Source of the DNA: Acidimicrobiia bacterium
GTDB lineage: Bacteria; Actinomycetota; Acidimicrobiia; Acidimicrobiales; Poriferisodalaceae
Direction of reading: 5' to 3'
DNA: 64,000 nt
NCBI GenBank assembly: GCA_022822525.1
Contig: JAJEBN010000017.1
Location: 1-64,000 of the forward strand
Shown here: piece after piece, positions 1 through 7,726 of the stretch
Numbering within the stretch: the stretch's first letter is position 1
How the letters are laid out: each line of letters begins with the position of its first letter
Notes under the pieces: generated by a model
Told to the model about the DNA's origin: nothing
Databases searched by the model: none
The model's input: only the letters and a program-made list of their open reading frames with translations
Translations under genes and position numbers: made by a program

Positions 1-816
1 GCCGGTCATCACGAACGGCTGCGGGATGCACTCCTCGTTCAGCTTGTCGTACACCGCGAGCGTGTTCGGCGAGCCCAGCGTCAAGATCGAGAACACGTTC
101 TCCGCTTCGATCAGCTCGTCCACGAACTCGATCGTCTGAGCGGCGACGTACGCGTCATCCTTGATGATCAGCGTCAGATCACGTGGAGCACCGCCGACCA
201 TGATCGGGTCGTTCTCGTTGAGCCAGTTGAAGTAGTTCTCCCAGCCGTAGGCGATGTTGCCGTACGCAGCCAAGTTGCCCGACTGCGCAGTGGTATGACC
301 GATGCGAACCTGGCTGTCGGTAATACCCGTGGTGTTCGACCAGTCGCTCGGGCACGCACTGATGTCGATCTCGAAGCCCGCAGGACCGCGCAGGATGCCG
401 TCGTCACCGACGCCGTACTCACCCGCCTCGATCTTCTCGGTCAGCTCGGCGACAGTCTTGGCACGGCGAGCAGCGGCCTCTTCGAAGATGCCGTCGAGGG
501 TGGAGCGATCGAACATCATCTCCTCCTCTTCCATCATCTCCTCCTCGGTCATCTCCTCTTCCTCGGCGTCGCCGGAAACGGCGGCTTCGATGTCTTCCTC
601 AGAAGCGGCGCCGCCCAGCGAGGACTGCTCCTCGTCTTCCTCGGCCATCTCTTCGTCGGCCATCTCCTCATCGTCGCTGGCCGCAGCAGTGGTCTCGGTC
701 TCGGTCTCGCCGCCACTGCTGTCATCCGCGTCGTCATCGCCGCCGCCGCACGCAGCGGCAACAAGCGAGAACGCGAACAGCAGAGCAAGCAGACGCCAAA
801 GTCGGCGCTTGGTCAT
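1..816 (-). CDS. livK: Branched-chain amino-acid-type ABC transporter substrate-binding lipoprotein (partial)
   Basis: The first 272 codons of a periplasmic-binding-protein-like receptor; the gene runs off the left edge. The N-terminus is a lipoprotein signal peptide (KRR, hydrophobic stretch, lipobox LVAAC with Cys22). A Gly/Asp run and a long acidic Glu/Met-rich linker to about residue 115 follow. The ligand-binding fold then begins (ITDSQVRIGHTTAQSGNLAAYG), as in LivK/Leu-Ile-Val-binding proteins. The ATG at 816 is preceded by a strong GGGAGG ribosome site. It is the last gene of the minus-strand liv cluster, 134 bp after livM2. The gap contains TTGACA but no convincing -10, so a separate promoter is possible. 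Family is clear; the exact substrate (amino acid, amide, urea) is not. Confidence 0.9.
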   Translation of the reverse strand, partial: MTKRRLWRLLALLFAFSLVAAACGGGDDDADDSSGGETETETTAAASDDEEMADEEMAEEDEEQSSLGGAASEEDIEAAVSGDAEEEEMTEEEMMEEEEMMFDRSTLDGIFEEAAARRAKTVAELTEKIEAGEYGVGDDGILRGPAGFEIDISACPSDWSNTTGITDSQVRIGHTTAQSGNLAAYGNIAYGWENYFNWLNENDPIMVGGAPRDLTLIIKDDAYVAAQTIEFVDELIEAENVFSILTLGSPNTLAVYDKLNEECIPQPFVMTG

Positions 817-950: not shown

Positions 951-2312
951 TCACGTTCGATCTTGGCTTGACGGGGACACCGGAAGACCCCGGCGGCGGT
1001 TGAACAGCCCGATGAGTCCGCGGGGAAACACGAACGTCAAGGCCACCAGCAGCATTCCGAAGACGAACTGCTCCTCGTCGAGCAGGCGCAGGAATTCGCC
1101 GAGTGGGCCCAGCCCGCTCACGCCGCCGAGCAGCTCGCCGATTCTCGAGAAGACTTCCCGGATGGCGACGCCGAGCACCGAGCCCCACAGCGAGCCCAGC
1201 CCGCCGAGCACGGCGGTCGCGTACAGCACCAGCGACTCCTGGAACGGGAACGACTCCTGCGAGGTGAACGGCACCAGAATGATGCCGAGCGCGCCGGCCA
1301 GCCCCGCCAGCGACGCGCTCACCGCGAAGGTGTTGACCCTGGAGGCCACCAGGTTGACTCCGTGTACGGCAGCGGCGGTGTCGTTGTCGCGCACCGCACG
1401 CATCGCGCGGCCGGGCCGGCTGTTGATGACGTTGTACGTGACCCACATGGCCAGCCCGACCACTGCCAAGCAGATCAGGTAGCGGTACAGGCCCTCGGCC
1501 CAGCGGGTGGTGCCGAACCACGACGGCGGCACGAGCTCGGCACCCACGGCCCGGCCGCTGACCCCCCCGGAGAAGGCGGGCACTCGCTTCGCGAGCGGCT
1601 GAAACACGATGGCCAGCCCGAGCGTCACGAGCGCAAGGTGGATGCCCTTGATGCGAAGCGCCGGCAGTCCCACCAGTGCCCCCACCAAACCGGCGAATGC
1701 AGCTCCTGCGAGGATCGAGACGGCCCATGGCAGCGCCAAGTCGTCGAGTGCGTACGCGGCAGCGAACGCGCCCACCGCTACGAATACTCCGTGACCGAGG
1801 CTGATCATGCCGCCGTAACCCGTGGCGACATTCACGCCGAGCACTGCGAGCACCATGACGATGATCTGTGTGTTCTGCCGCAGCTCGGTCACCGAGCTGG
1901 TGAGCGGCATCGCCACCAGCCACACGCCCAGCAACGCAGCGCTGGCCCAGCGGAGCGGGCTGATGCGCCGGCGATGCCTCACTCCACGATCCGCGCCGCC
2001 GGCGTCGACGACGCCGCCGACCGGGGGGTTTGCGGTGGGTGTCACCGGCGGGCCGCTGCGGACGCTGAGCCCGGCAGCGGCAGGCTGGGCGCCTCGTGCT
2101 CCAGTTTCGACCGGATCATCGGCGTCACGCGGCGTCGCAGTCGCTGCCGGCTCATCAGCTTCGGGCTCCGGGCCCGGATCACCGGCCCCGGCCGGCGCGC
2201 CATGGATCTCCGTTTCGGGCGGGGCGAAGACGGCGAACACGCTGGCTTCGGCGCCCGCGTCGTCGTCATCGCCGGGGCGCGGCATCGGCGTCGGCCAGTC
2301 GTCGCCGCTCAC
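951..2312 (-). CDS. livM: Branched-chain amino-acid-type ABC permease LivM (second copy), long N-terminal extension
   Basis: Inner-membrane permease of the LivM family, 453 residues from the GTG at 2312. That GTG overlaps the livH2 stop by 4 nt (GTGA), which is why I chose it. Residues from about 119 on carry the family's membrane segments and conserved stretches (GLPALRIKGIHLALVTLG; SRPGRAMRAVRDND; GVNL). The first ~118 residues are hydrophilic, rich in Pro, Gly, Asp and Ala, and absent from typical LivM. If translation starts nearer the first membrane helix, the extension would not exist, and I cannot decide this from sequence. It pairs with the adjacent livH2 and presumably shares the LivG/LivF ATPases of the operon. 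Confidence 0.88.
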   Translation of the reverse strand: MSGDDWPTPMPRPGDDDDAGAEASVFAVFAPPETEIHGAPAGAGDPGPEPEADEPAATATPRDADDPVETGARGAQPAAAGLSVRSGPPVTPTANPPVGGVVDAGGADRGVRHRRRISPLRWASAALLGVWLVAMPLTSSVTELRQNTQIIVMVLAVLGVNVATGYGGMISLGHGVFVAVGAFAAAYALDDLALPWAVSILAGAAFAGLVGALVGLPALRIKGIHLALVTLGLAIVFQPLAKRVPAFSGGVSGRAVGAELVPPSWFGTTRWAEGLYRYLICLAVVGLAMWVTYNVINSRPGRAMRAVRDNDTAAAVHGVNLVASRVNTFAVSASLAGLAGALGIILVPFTSQESFPFQESLVLYATAVLGGLGSLWGSVLGVAIREVFSRIGELLGGVSGLGPLGEFLRLLDEEQFVFGMLLVALTFVFPRGLIGLFNRRRGLPVSPSSQDRT

Positions 2313-3253
2313 ACCCGCTCGATTCGCTGGGTGCCGAACAACCCGGCCGGACGGACAATCAACACCACCACCATGGCGACGAGTGCCGGCAGCACGCTCA
2401 GCTCGAATCCGATGAACGGTACGTACGCAGGGATCAGCGTCTGGCTCAAGCCCACGACGACGCCGCCGACGAGCGCTCCCTTCGGCGAGTCGAGCCCGCC
2501 GAGCGTCGCCGCGGCGAAGGCATACACGAGGACCCGCACCATCATCGTGGGCTCGAGCAGCACCGAGTTGGCGCTCATGTTGGCCGCGATGGCCCCGAGG
2601 CCGGCTGCCAGCGCCCACCCGTACATCAGTGTCGGCCCGACGCGGATGCCGTTCAGCGCAGCGGAAACCGGATCGATCGACACGGCACGGAAGGCGAGTC
2701 CGGCTCTCGTGTAGCGCAGCAGCAGCGCGAGCAGCAGCAGCAGCGCCAGCAACACCAACCAGGCCCCGATCGTCGAGTAGCGGATCCGTGCGCCAGCGAT
2801 GTCGATGTGGTCTCCAGGCGAGGAGGGGAAGAACGGCGGGAAGATACGCGGACCGGTCCCCCACCACTGGCCCATCAGCGAGTTGAGGGCCAGCAGGATG
2901 CCGATCGTCACGTTGACCATCGCTAGCTCGGGTGCGTTGCGCAATGGTCGTATCAGGACCCGCTCAGTTGCGGCGCCGGCGCCGATGCCGATGATGACAG
3001 CGAGACCGATGGCCACGGGCGTCACCAATGGCGCTCCGATCCACGCCGCCAGCCCTCCCCCTTTGACACCAGGTGCAGCGCCGGCGAGCAGCACGAACGC
3101 GATGTAGGCCGAGAACGTGGCCATCTCGCCCTGTGCGAAGTTCAGCAACCCCGTCGACCGGAAGATGATGACCAGCGCCAAGGCCAGCGAGGAATAGATG
3201 GCGCTGTTGAACAGTGCGTCAAAGATGCGCTGCAGCAGCAGGACTACATCCAT
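2309..3253 (-). CDS. livH: Branched-chain amino-acid-type ABC permease LivH (second copy)
   Basis: Inner-membrane permease of 314 residues, normal for LivH. It is hydrophobic throughout and has family signatures near the N-terminus (IFRSTGLLNFAQGEMATF) and C-terminus (AAATLGGLDSPKGALVGG). It should form the translocation pore together with LivM2, whose GTG start overlaps its stop. It lies 70 bp after livM1 in the same minus-strand array. It lacks the Cys-containing external insertion seen in LivH1, so the two pairs are diverged paralogues rather than a recent duplication. Confidence 0.92.
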   Translation of the reverse strand: MDVVLLLQRIFDALFNSAIYSSLALALVIIFRSTGLLNFAQGEMATFSAYIAFVLLAGAAPGVKGGGLAAWIGAPLVTPVAIGLAVIIGIGAGAATERVLIRPLRNAPELAMVNVTIGILLALNSLMGQWWGTGPRIFPPFFPSSPGDHIDIAGARIRYSTIGAWLVLLALLLLLALLLRYTRAGLAFRAVSIDPVSAALNGIRVGPTLMYGWALAAGLGAIAANMSANSVLLEPTMMVRVLVYAFAAATLGGLDSPKGALVGGVVVGLSQTLIPAYVPFIGFELSVLPALVAMVVVLIVRPAGLFGTQRIERV

Positions 3254-3323
3254 GTCAGCTGCTCAGCCTTCCTCGGCGCCGTGCTGTGGCAGCGGCCAGC
3301 GTTGGCTGGCCGCAACGTTGTGG

Positions 3324-5144
3324 CTACGCAGACGCGCTGGCGCCCTCGGGCTCCGGAGCGGGCTCGGTCTTGTCATCGGCGAAGACGAAGTAACGAAGCC
3401 CGACGACGACGGTGACGACGATGGCAATGATGCTCAGCACCAGCGAGAGCATGCTCTGCGTCGGCCAGCCGATCAGCCAGAAGCCCACCGCTGTCTCGGA
3501 TGCGTCGATCGCATCTGAGGCGGCGTCACACAGCGCGGCCACCGACATATCGCTGATCTCGCCGTCCGGCGAGGAGGCGCAGAATTCGCCGGACGTCCCC
3601 ACGAAGTCCTTTGCTTTCGCAGCCTCATTGACCATTGGTATCGCCGGGACCGTCTTGCCGTCCGGGTTGACTGCCACCGACTCGCGCGCAAGGTGCCCGA
3701 CGTGGTGAGCGCGCAGCGCGAGGTTCAGGGCAAAGGTCTTGATGTAGGCGAAGCTGAGGACGCCGAGAACGCCAGCCACTTTCGCCTGTGACGCGACGGT
3801 GTCGGCATTGTCGCCACGCAGGCCTGCCTTGGCGGCTCGGAGCTCGTTCATCGAGACGAAGACCACGATCGGTGCGAGCACGACAATGGCAAAGCGCAAT
3901 GCAAATGCCAGCGTGCCGACGATGAGGTTGTCGACGTTCATCAGCACCCAGCCGATCACCAGCAGCACCGGACCCATCACAGCGAACCTCACGGCCCATG
4001 TGGCGCGGGTCGATGAGGGGCCCGGATCGAGAGCCGAGAGCGGGGTGACGGCGTCGCCGTCTGGGGTGAGCGGCACTACCTGGATGATCTTCTTCTGCAC
4101 GGCCGTCACCATCGATGCGATGCCGCCGGGGGCGAAGAACGTGAAGAGAATGAGGATGAGGCCGAAGATGGCCGCCGACAGCGGCCCGTCGCCGTCGAGG
4201 GTATAGAAGCCCAGCGGGATGGAAATCCGCTTGGTGAGGTCTCGGGCCCACACCACGAACAGACCGCCGAAGATCGAACCCTGCAAAGTGCCGACCCCGC
4301 CGATCACCAAGCCGATGATGAGGTCGACCGCCAGCAGGAAGGTGAAGTCCTGGCCGGCCACGAAACCCTTGTCAAGGCACCACATGAGGCCCGCCAGCGA
4401 GCCCAGCGAGGCGCTCAGTGCGAAGTTCACCGTCTTGTACATCGGCAGGTTGACGCCGTAGACCGCAGCGCCGGCTTCGCTGTCGCGAATTGCCAGCACT
4501 GCTCGCCCGGGGCGGCTGCGCATGATGTTGCGCACCAGCGCGACCACGACCACCGTGATCAGCAGCAGGATCCAATAGCGATAGGCGTTGGCGCCACGGG
4601 CGCCGTCGACTCCCGGCAGCCACTCGAAGAAGCTCGAGAAGCCGCTTTCCTGGCGGTCAACTTCCTCGATGACATCTCGACCGTTGGGTCCGCCCGTGCG
4701 TCGCGCGATGCCGAGCTCGTCGATATTCACGAGCGTCGGGAACACTGCCGCTTGCGCGATGGTGACCAAGGCGAGATAGAGACCCTTGACCCGTAGCGCC
4801 GGCAGACCCACGATGACTCCGATGGCGAATCCGACGATCACGACCACTGGAATGACCATCCAGTAGTCCCAGAGCTCGTCTTGGACCATGGATGCCGCAA
4901 CGAACGCGCCGATGCCCATGAACGCCGAATGGCCCAAGGCAAGCATGCCGTTGAAGCCCACGACCAGATTGACCGCCAGCACAGCGACCATCAAGACCAG
5001 CGCGCGGTTCATCTTGCCGATCTCGAACGGCTGCAGGACCAGCGGCACCAAGACGGCCAGCGCCACGGCGTAGCCCCAGCTCAGGAATCGCCACTGGCGA
5101 TGCTGTGTGCTGCCCTTGGAAACGATGAGCAGTGGTGAACTCAT
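3324..5144 (-). CDS. livM: Branched-chain amino-acid-type ABC permease LivM (first copy) with large C-terminal membrane extension
   Basis: 606 residues against roughly 300-400 for ordinary LivM. Residues ~15-350 are a full LivM permease (VGFNGMLALGHSAFMGIGA; GLPALRVKGLYLALVTIAQA; SRPGRAVLAIRDSEAGAAVY). The remaining ~250 residues add at least three hydrophobic segments. Between the later ones is a polar loop with two cysteines (GEFCASSPDG and ALCDAASDA), and the tail is acidic. I do not recognise the extension. The ATG at 5144 lies 29 bp after livH1. Translation is continuous through the extension with no sign of frameshift. It may be a docking or regulatory module for the importer (inference only). 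Confidence 0.87.
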   Translation of the reverse strand: MSSPLLIVSKGSTQHRQWRFLSWGYAVALAVLVPLVLQPFEIGKMNRALVLMVAVLAVNLVVGFNGMLALGHSAFMGIGAFVAASMVQDELWDYWMVIPVVVIVGFAIGVIVGLPALRVKGLYLALVTIAQAAVFPTLVNIDELGIARRTGGPNGRDVIEEVDRQESGFSSFFEWLPGVDGARGANAYRYWILLLITVVVVALVRNIMRSRPGRAVLAIRDSEAGAAVYGVNLPMYKTVNFALSASLGSLAGLMWCLDKGFVAGQDFTFLLAVDLIIGLVIGGVGTLQGSIFGGLFVVWARDLTKRISIPLGFYTLDGDGPLSAAIFGLILILFTFFAPGGIASMVTAVQKKIIQVVPLTPDGDAVTPLSALDPGPSSTRATWAVRFAVMGPVLLVIGWVLMNVDNLIVGTLAFALRFAIVVLAPIVVFVSMNELRAAKAGLRGDNADTVASQAKVAGVLGVLSFAYIKTFALNLALRAHHVGHLARESVAVNPDGKTVPAIPMVNEAAKAKDFVGTSGEFCASSPDGEISDMSVAALCDAASDAIDASETAVGFWLIGWPTQSMLSLVLSIIAIVVTVVVGLRYFVFADDKTEPAPEPEGASASA

Positions 5145-5173
5145 ACCTCAGCAACTCCCCTTGGGTCGTTGAG

Positions 5174-6232
5174 CTAGACGCGCTCAATGCGGCGGGTACC
5201 GAAGAGACCCGCTGGACGGAACAGCAGCACGATCAGGATCAGCAGGAATGCCATTGCCAGCTGCAAGATCGAGAAATAGGCCTGGCCCAGCACGACTACG
5301 CCGAACCAGGACACGAGCACCGACTTGATCAGCCCCACGACGAGCCCGCCGATGACGGCGCCGCCCAGGCTGTCGAGCCCGCCCAAGGCGGCTGCGGCCA
5401 GCGCATAGATCAGAATGGTCAGCATCATGTTGGGGTTGACGCCGCCCAGCGCCGGCGACACCAGCGCTGCGCCGAGCGTGCCGAAGACTGAGGCGAGCGC
5501 CCAGCCGAAGCCCAGCGTCCGACCTGTGTTGACGCCGACCAGCCGTGCCGATTCGGCATTGGACGAGACGGCACGGAAGGCCAGGCCGGCCTTCGTCTTG
5601 CCCAGGATGATCGCCAGCGCAATCAGCGCCAGAGCGAGCCCGATCCATGTGCCGATGGTGCGGTAGTGGAGCCGTGCGCCGATGACTTCGAAGAAGGTCC
5701 GGCCCACCATCTCGCACATGTCGGCATCGGCGGTGCCGCGTGCGACCTCGATGAGGTCGCCATCGGCATTCTTGAGGCAGGCAATAGTGCCGTCGCTCGA
5801 TGTCTTCAGTTCGCTGCCGTTGGGCACCCAGCTCGGGAAGTGCCCGAATGGGTCGTTGACGCGGCGCACCTGGTAGTTCCATATGTCGCCGGCGACGGCG
5901 TTGATGATGAGGAATAGGCCCAGCGTGATCAACACGACCGGTAGGTGGTCGTCGGGGTCGAAGGGTCTGACGAGCGCTCGCTCCACGACCGCTCCGATGA
6001 CCGCGCTGACCGCCATGGCTACAGCGATGGAGAGCCAGAGCCACCAGCCTTGCTCCACGTTCAGTACGTACACAAAGAACGCACCGAGCATGGCCAACTC
6101 GCCTGTGGCGAAGTTGATCAACGTGGTGGCCTTGAAGATCAGCACCAGCGCCAAAGCGACGGTGCCATAGACGGCCCCGTCGCGTAGGCCGTTGAAAATG
6201 AAATCCGGAAGGATCTCGAAGTTCCAGTTCAC
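5174..6232 (-). CDS. livH: Branched-chain amino-acid-type ABC permease LivH (first copy) with external insertion
   Basis: 352-residue LivH-type inner-membrane permease. Core signatures are present (IFKATTLINFATGELAMLGA near the start; AAAALGGLDSLGGAVIGG near the end). Between the middle helices, roughly residues 125-185, there is a polar insertion with two cysteines (TIACLKNADGD, ADADMCEMVG) that LivH2 lacks. LivM1, its partner, also carries a Cys-pair polar loop, so this pair may have a shared external element. It follows livF by 22 bp and precedes livM1 in the same operon. Confidence 0.91.
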   Translation of the reverse strand: MNWNFEILPDFIFNGLRDGAVYGTVALALVLIFKATTLINFATGELAMLGAFFVYVLNVEQGWWLWLSIAVAMAVSAVIGAVVERALVRPFDPDDHLPVVLITLGLFLIINAVAGDIWNYQVRRVNDPFGHFPSWVPNGSELKTSSDGTIACLKNADGDLIEVARGTADADMCEMVGRTFFEVIGARLHYRTIGTWIGLALALIALAIILGKTKAGLAFRAVSSNAESARLVGVNTGRTLGFGWALASVFGTLGAALVSPALGGVNPNMMLTILIYALAAAALGGLDSLGGAVIGGLVVGLIKSVLVSWFGVVVLGQAYFSILQLAMAFLLILIVLLFRPAGLFGTRRIERV

Positions 6233-6254
6233 GGTCTGCCCCCGTACCTGCTGA

Positions 6255-6964
<710 letters not shown>

Positions 6965-6968
<4 letters not shown>

Positions 6969-7726
6969 GAAGAACTCCCCAGGTATGCCTCGATGACCTC
7001 CGGGTCGTTGCGCACGACATCGGGGTGACCGTCGGCAATCTTGCGGCCGAAGTTAAGCACCACGAGGTGCTCGCTGATGTTGAGCACCATGCGCATGTGG
7101 TGCTCGACGAGCAGCACCGACAGGTTGTGCCGGTCGCGGAGGTCCTTGACATCTTGGGCGAGCGAGTCGACCTCGGCGTGGGTGAGACCCGACGCCGGCT
7201 CATCCATCATGATGAGGCGCGGGTTGGCGATGAGCGCCCGTGCGAGCTCGATGCGCTTCAGCGTGCCGAACGGCAGACCGGCGGCGGGATGGTAGGCGTA
7301 CTCCTCGAGGCCGAGTTCCTCGAGCGCTTCCCATGCCCTCCGTCGCAAGTCTTTCTCTTCGTTGCGGGTGCCGAGCCGGAACGCAGCCGTGAAGAAGTTC
7401 GCCTTCGAGTTGGTGTGGTCGCCCACCATCACATTCTCGATCACCGTCATGCCCTTCCAGAGGGCCAGGTTCTGGAATGTGCGGTAGACGCCGACGCGAC
7501 TGATCTGGTGCGCTGGCATCGCCAGCAGATCGTGCCCGTCGAATGTCACCGCGCCGGTCGTCGGGTCGTAGATCCGGCTGACCACGTTGAACAACGTGGT
7601 CTTGCCCGCGCCATTCGGTCCGATGAGACCGAGAATCTGTCCCTCGTCCAGAGAGAAGGACAAATCGTCGAGCGCACGGATGCCGCCGAACTGCACGGAG
7701 ATGTCTTGGACTTCGAGCAACGCCAC
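6965..7726 (-). CDS. livG: Branched-chain amino-acid-type ABC transporter ATPase LivG
   Basis: First gene of the liv cluster, 253 residues, cytoplasmic ABC ATPase. It has Walker A ([11 protein letters not shown]), a LivG-style signature ([15 protein letters not shown]), Walker B ([11 protein letters not shown]) and the switch His ([20 protein letters not shown]). The GTG start at 7726 is supported by a strong purine run (GGAGGGGG) just upstream. About 230 bp separate it from the upstream tRNA gene on the same strand, so the operon promoter should lie there, although I see no clear -35/-10 pair. Confidence 0.95.

Follow-up and report, generated by a model that had tools for sequence, protein, structure and literature searches.

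Genus-restricted, cysteine-bearing additions to both partner subunits of one Liv-type permease pair in the Acidimicrobiia

Two adjacent genes in a 64,000-nucleotide stretch of DNA from an Acidimicrobiia bacterium of the family Poriferisodalaceae (assembly GCA_022822525.1, contig JAJEBN010000017.1, positions 1 to 64,000; hereafter the window) encode LivM1 (606 amino acids; 3324..5144, minus strand) and LivH1 (352 amino acids; 5174..6232, minus strand), which we identify from their open reading frames, PF02653 matches and predicted BtuC/HmuU-type folds as partner permease subunits of an ATP-binding cassette (ABC) importer. Here we describe additions to both of them. LivM1 carries a C-terminal extension made of two layers that differ in age, and the second layer, restricted to the genus of the window, occurs together with a 36-residue insert in LivH1 in every genome measured for both. 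Each of the two genus-only elements holds one pair of cysteines, and none of the four cysteines is missing from any of the 11 genomes of the genus, even those that have diverged more. The initial annotation of the window had proposed that these paired additions form a shared extracytoplasmic element, perhaps a receptor-docking or redox-sensitive cap.

The permease-core profile covers LivM1 to about residue 345 and leaves a tail of 261 residues, and the AlphaFold2 model aligns with BtuC and HmuU up to residue 339. Thus the protein does continue past its normal end, as first noted from the letters, and the additional hydrophobic segments, put then at three or more, are real and number four (predicted helices 380-402, 407-439, 444-487, and 565-586). 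The first layer, defined by alignments and the AlphaFold2 model, spans residues ~355-475 (3720..4082, minus strand) and comprises three membrane helices, the third of which continues past residue 475. It is largely intramembrane, lacks a cysteine pair and is common to six genera of the family. The second layer (residues 476-606; 3327..3719, minus strand) consists of the end of the third added helix, a polar loop bearing C522 and C539, helix 565-586 and an acidic tail. A search with residues 355-606 found a match in 33 of the 39 family genomes, belonging to six of its ten genera, and in 11 of 298 genomes of the order, every one of these inside the family; the six family genomes (four genera) where the extension had no match were not searched for LivM1 orthologs. 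In the genus of the window the match is complete or nearly so in 11/11 genomes, reaching residue 244 of 252 or further, and in 22 genomes of other genera it ends after ~97-125 residues. The tails themselves follow the same division: 251-254 amino acids with two cysteines in all 11 genomes of the genus, and in 21 of the 22 others 121-130 amino acids with at most one cysteine, the exception being a genome (G308) whose tail was not measured whole (locus L086, which probably represents that contig, breaks off at 98 residues). The full-length second layer is accordingly found in 11/11 and 0/21 fully measured tails, respectively, and its half of the extension has no match outside the genus at the thresholds used among the 39 family, 298 order, 395 class, and 376 phylum genomes, which are overlapping samples.

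A separate gene joined to livM through an assembly or sequencing error, which had been named as a way in which the observation might fail, is excluded on this sequence evidence: the full-length frame recurs in every genome of the genus, ten separate named records of the same genus have it, and the first layer is carried by most genomes of the family; we found no point in favour of such an error. Moreover, the LivM1 and LivH1 frames have no internal stops, and 31 of the 33 extension matches are stop-free, the other two having one stop each, in a match that overruns a 121-residue tail. A known domain for the entire extension was also rejected, there being no weighty sequence match in Pfam, NCBIfam or PDB. 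The matches to PsbY (0.025 for LivM1 and at best 0.0066 over 16 relatives), DUF2244 (best 0.13), and mannose permease (0.81) were dismissed as short hydrophobic similarities, and the VIA-align rows over LivM1 ~353-601 (designed toroids, SNAREs, 14-3-3 proteins, and others; Z at most 8.9) were judged to reflect a common helix-bundle arrangement.

The cysteine loop of LivM1 occupies residues 488-564 (3453..3683, minus strand) and is extracytoplasmic in the AlphaFold2-based prediction; its two cysteines stand in the motifs GEFC (3579-3590, minus strand) and ALCDAA (3519-3536, minus strand). The insert of LivH1, established by alignments and the AlphaFold2 model, covers residues 139-174 (5711..5818, minus strand), contains C152 and C173 and is predicted to form beta strands. 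Both two-cysteine stretches had been pointed out in the initial annotation, and both stand. The insert is present in 11/11 genomes of the genus and in 0/15 measured contigs of other genera of the family, with LivH1 rows left uncounted where the contig ends or the pattern failed (e.g., L043, L045, and L087); it is likewise absent from seven aligned H-type proteins of other families of the order and from four LivH2 proteins in the same alignment. In addition, the genus has five more residues than the other aligned genera in the LivM1 loop that corresponds to TM5-TM6 (TM, transmembrane helix), where the window encodes DRQESGFSS (4632..4658, minus strand). The two cysteines are separated by 20 intervening residues in LivH1 and by 16 in LivM1, and they are retained in spite of considerable divergence: between the window and locus L038 the nonsynonymous distance (dN) is 0.37 for the LivM1 loop and 0.48 for the LivH1 insert. 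In the five genome pairs compared by the Nei-Gojobori method, the ratio of nonsynonymous to synonymous distances (dN/dS) of the two elements stays below 1, ranging over 0.08-0.44 in the loop and 0.08-0.59 in the insert (lowest value 0.075); the LivM1 core gives 0.02-0.13 and the remainder of LivH1 0.04-0.20 in the same pairs. All these values are rough, as some synonymous distances are high. Thus both elements are coding and constrained, yet evolve faster than the core. Among the matches listed, judged by titles and the starts of abstracts, the literature on LivM and LivH, extended ABC importers, and BtuC outer loops contains no description of these features.

The sister pair of permeases encoded immediately downstream lacks both features, as had been noticed at the outset: 13 aligned LivH2 proteins and 12 aligned LivM2 cores have no inserts like those of LivH1 and LivM1. 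In this genus the N-terminus of LivM2 is extended by a low-complexity stretch rich in proline, alanine, and acidic residues, very roughly 50-115 residues long by eye from a putative start, which the other aligned genera do not have. Of the 13 M-type frames measured in the window's own genome, LivM1 alone continues past the core into a tail with several strongly hydrophobic stretches; M-type and H-type here mean matches to profiles built from the operon relatives, which leave more distant permeases uncovered (L124, L125, and L131 gave none). The 63-residue tail of L127 is the unmatched end of its own core. Six M-type proteins of this genome have tails of 286-314 amino acids with a Walker A-like motif, which are not hydrophobic; loci L122, L126, L128, L130, and L134 are among these frames, some with an H-type domain upstream, and they are probably fused permease-ATPases.

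The relation of the first layer to a known family comes from profile comparison. The extension profile matches 8 of 395 class genomes at E<=0.01, namely the window's own and seven others, and for all seven of the latter DUF4190 is the best Pfam family, two exceeding its cut-off; a scan of 376 phylum genomes gave no match besides the window's own genome. In hhalign, the shared part of the extension (15 sequences) aligns with five DUF4190 proteins at 97.9% and a score of 76.4, compared with maxima of 22.5 over 60 column-shuffled versions and 17.7 over 76 windows of the permease core, although it was the extension profile that had identified these five proteins in the first place, and neither profile is deep (Neff, the effective number of sequences, about 2). 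The match spans a polar loop, NEL-x-A-x(3)-G-x-R, and hence extends beyond hydrophobic stretches alone; the alignment requires a gap of 24 residues, about one helix. None of 16 extension sequences compared with Pfam at E<=10 hits DUF4190 (gathering score 35 bits), and nothing was found under this family name in the literature searched. Taken together, the profile scores above both controls suggest that the first layer is distantly homologous to the small DUF4190 membrane proteins. In another family of the order, one genome (G087; loci L109 and L116) encodes a LivM that likewise ends in a hydrophobic tail, here ~100 residues long and seemingly of independent origin; a search of 298 order genomes with it found itself strongly and five others weakly, and because it has no DUF4190 match in Pfam we keep it apart from the fusion described here.

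Structure prediction places both subunits in the fold of type II importer permeases. LivH1 aligns with 4g1u_A over 249 residues (Z 15.0, root mean square deviation (rmsd) 5.2) and LivM1 over 240 residues (Z 13.9, rmsd 5.3); the best Foldseek match of LivH1 is PsaBC (E 6.7e-4). Residues 2-339 of LivH1 align to residues 35-324 of BtuC, and from the aligned ranges and the helix count we read its first helix as the probable equivalent of BtuC TM2, the helix before the insert as TM5, and the helix after it as TM6, followed by the coupling helices. The insert lies between helices 96-118 and 190-212, with C152 in strand 150-154 and C173 in strand 171-176. Since the flanking helices correspond to TM5 and TM6, the insert would belong to the outer TM5-TM6 loop. 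In LivM1 the core is predicted to end on the cytoplasmic side after the equivalent of TM10, so that helices 380-402, 407-439, and 444-487 would run out, in, and out, loop 488-564 would lie outside, and helix 565-586 would bring the chain back in. Charge agrees in part with this arrangement, as the segment that contains the cysteine loop has 6 lysines and arginines against 12 aspartates and glutamates. The two cysteine loops, had they fallen on opposite sides of the membrane, would have spoken against a common element, and the prediction puts both on the same, outer side, by helix parity on a BtuC-type core.

Together these data fit the following tentative scheme, in which a Liv-type importer has two permease pairs, LivH1 and LivM1 being the first. 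As the distribution and the profile comparison show, the C-terminus of LivM1 gained a DUF4190-like membrane module in the ancestor of the six genera. Later, in the lineage of the window's genus, LivH1 acquired its 36-residue predicted-beta insert in the putatively outer TM5-TM6 loop, and LivM1 a putatively outer loop of ~75 residues together with one helix that would return the chain to the cytoplasm; the distribution shows both gains, and the side of the membrane follows from the predicted topology. Each element most likely holds an intra-loop structural disulfide formed by its invariant cysteine pair. Both would most likely ring the outer mouth of the LivH1/LivM1 channel as a rim or cap in contact with the lipid-anchored LivK protein, tuning docking or gating at this pair and not at LivH2/LivM2. 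A rim or cap touching LivK is favoured because the LivH1 insert sits in what is the gate and receptor region of BtuC and FhuCDB: the passages available of two structural studies describe the end of TM5 and TM5a of BtuC as enclosing the outer gate (PMC3260306) and the loop or loops after TM5 of FhuCDB as entering a pocket of the binding protein (PMC8660799). By this analogy the receptor-docking part of the initial proposal gains plausibility, and its notion of paired additions holds for the second layer and the LivH1 insert; the first layer, older and free of a cysteine pair, stands outside the pairing. The full account, a DUF4190-like fusion followed by paired, disulfide-stapled outer elements capping the receptor-docking site, is the one we incline to, at somewhat less than an even chance.

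Several observations weigh against this account. Model confidence is moderate, with a mean predicted local distance difference test score (pLDDT) of 72.3 for LivH1 and 69.0 for LivM1 and values below 50 at LivH1 121-132 and 136-140 and at LivM1 481-488 and 550-564, and LivM1 has no Foldseek match at E<=0.001 (best 0.022). The LivM1 loop before helix 444-487, with 4 lysines and arginines and 3 aspartates and glutamates, hardly helps its assignment to the inner side. In 13 genomes searched at E<=10, the Pfam DUF4190 model (PF13828) leaves the LivM1 locus without a match. VKOR, the usual disulfide oxidase of Actinobacteria, was not detected in the genome; a DsbB-family protein, which counts in favour, is encoded. 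Finally, the co-occurrence evidence all comes from one genus, so it may reflect the history of a single branch with two unrelated gains.

The last point leads to the strongest competitor, a neutral, lineage-specific decoration in which two unrelated loops expanded on one branch, each with its own disulfide and with no common function. The single-genus distribution offers no independent replicates, the loops diverge more rapidly than the core does (dN/dS as high as 0.59 vs. 0.02-0.20), and the expanded low-complexity N-terminus of LivM2 in the same genus would fit a general tendency of its proteins to expand; however, the four cysteines have survived in all 11 genomes, divergent relatives included, LivH2 shows no comparable gain, and the LivH1 insert is located at the gate and receptor loop. 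We regard such a decoration as a serious possibility, if a somewhat doubtful one. It is rather unlikely that the LivM1 extension is chiefly a module for membrane assembly or stability, its DUF4190-like helices packing against the core, with the genus-only loop and last helix capping the bundle and the LivH1 insert being a separate docking change: the greater age and largely intramembrane nature of the first layer would suit it, as would the fact that the second layer runs straight on from the last helix of the first, but the identical distribution of the LivH1 insert is then left unexplained. A redox-sensitive switch, in which an inter-subunit or reversible disulfide between LivH1 and LivM1 gates transport, appears very improbable. 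It draws on one cysteine pair per partner on the same predicted side of the membrane; nevertheless, two cysteines per loop at the spacings given above suit intra-loop disulfides, and nothing favours redox sensing above a plain structural disulfide in a search for reductases and sensors that covered DsbB and VKOR only.

The two pairs are part of an operon on the minus strand in the first 7.7 kb of the window, in the order LivG-LivF-LivH1-LivM1-LivH2-LivM2-LivK. The LivG-type (6965..7726, minus strand) and LivF-type (6255..6968, minus strand) ATPases are open reading frames conserved as neighbours in relatives, and we take their family names from familiar ABC ATPase motifs. LivH2 (2309..3253, minus strand), identified by its open reading frame, PF02653, and alignments, lacks the insert; LivM2 (951..2312, minus strand), with no loop insert, is assigned an inferred GTG start overlapping the LivH2 stop. 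The LivK-type lipoprotein (1..816, minus strand; PF13458 at residues 22-312 of its open reading frame), truncated at the contig end, has a putative lipobox. Its lipid anchor and binding domain are joined by a very acidic stretch rich in methionine and glutamate, seen in relatives of the same genus too. The complete six-gene order from LivG to LivM2 is found in 17 of 20 loci of the family, the remaining three being short. The association of two permease pairs with a single LivG and a single LivF gene (951-7726, minus strand) is kept wherever the family loci are long enough.

All four permeases exceed the Pfam gathering score of PF02653 (26.8 bits), LivM1 with 114.3 bits over residues 46-333 and LivH1 with 122.8 bits over residues 12-330. 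By the NCBIfam models, LivM1 scores 103 bits against a LivM (NF008450) cut-off of 366 and LivH1 75.3 bits against a LivH (NF008011) cut-off of 379, and both are far under the UrtB and UrtC cut-offs as well. Because they lie below the NCBIfam cut-offs, we do not assign branched-chain amino acids as the substrate.

As for the habitat, the nearest named records are metagenome-assembled genomes (MAGs) of Acidimicrobiia, comprising 32 loci, of which 10 carry the long LivM1; the window's own records may be missing from this set. Four of the ten named long-LivM1 MAGs of the genus bear the name prefix jk18x. Passages of a study of Ircinia sponges use this prefix for sponge MAGs and report livF, livG, livH, livK, and livM as enriched in several Ircinia hosts (PMC9531527). 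From the names and the accession series we infer a sponge origin for the other six, although a literature search on three of the names gave nothing relevant, and the genus of the window is apparently sponge-associated; record titles suggest that most MAGs of the other genera are marine. One may speculate, at the risk of being wrong rather than right, that this genus remodelled the exterior of one of the two permease pairs while it became a sponge symbiont. The matched cysteine-bearing elements of both subunits would then make up a composite cap to which the tethered LivK docks otherwise than to the unmodified LivH2/LivM2 pair, in addition to an older fusion of a DUF4190-like module to LivM.

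If the proposed account is true, each of the two permease subunits of an ABC importer acquired a matching outer element within one lineage, beside an unmodified sister pair with which they share the single LivG and the single LivF gene of the operon. This would provide a natural comparison for the evolution of receptor docking in type II importers, and it would hint at a role for the DUF4190-like module as a fused part of a transporter. The kind of transporter is a known one; what seems to have been remodelled in it is the intake side, through the paired cysteine elements predicted on its outer face.

Among known systems, the importers built on LivH and LivM of the PF02653 family resemble the pair described here in core sequence, in having two ATPase genes, and in the lipid-anchored receptor, but LivM1 has four extra helices and LivH1 an outer insert. 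The type II importers BtuCD-F, HmuUV, and FhuCDB share the permease fold, the outer TM5-TM6 loop, and the coupling helices with LivH1 and LivM1; however, their alignments stop at LivM1 ~339-351, and no top importer row reaches its added helices. The small DUF4190 (PF13828) membrane proteins of the same class are like LivM1 in the loop motif and its flanking helices, whereas the LivM1 module has ~24 extra residues, about one helix, is fused to a permease, and is missed by the Pfam model. Finally, the Walker A-tailed LivM proteins of the window's own genome, like LivM1, consist of a core followed by a long C-terminal addition, which in contrast to that of LivM1 is not hydrophobic.

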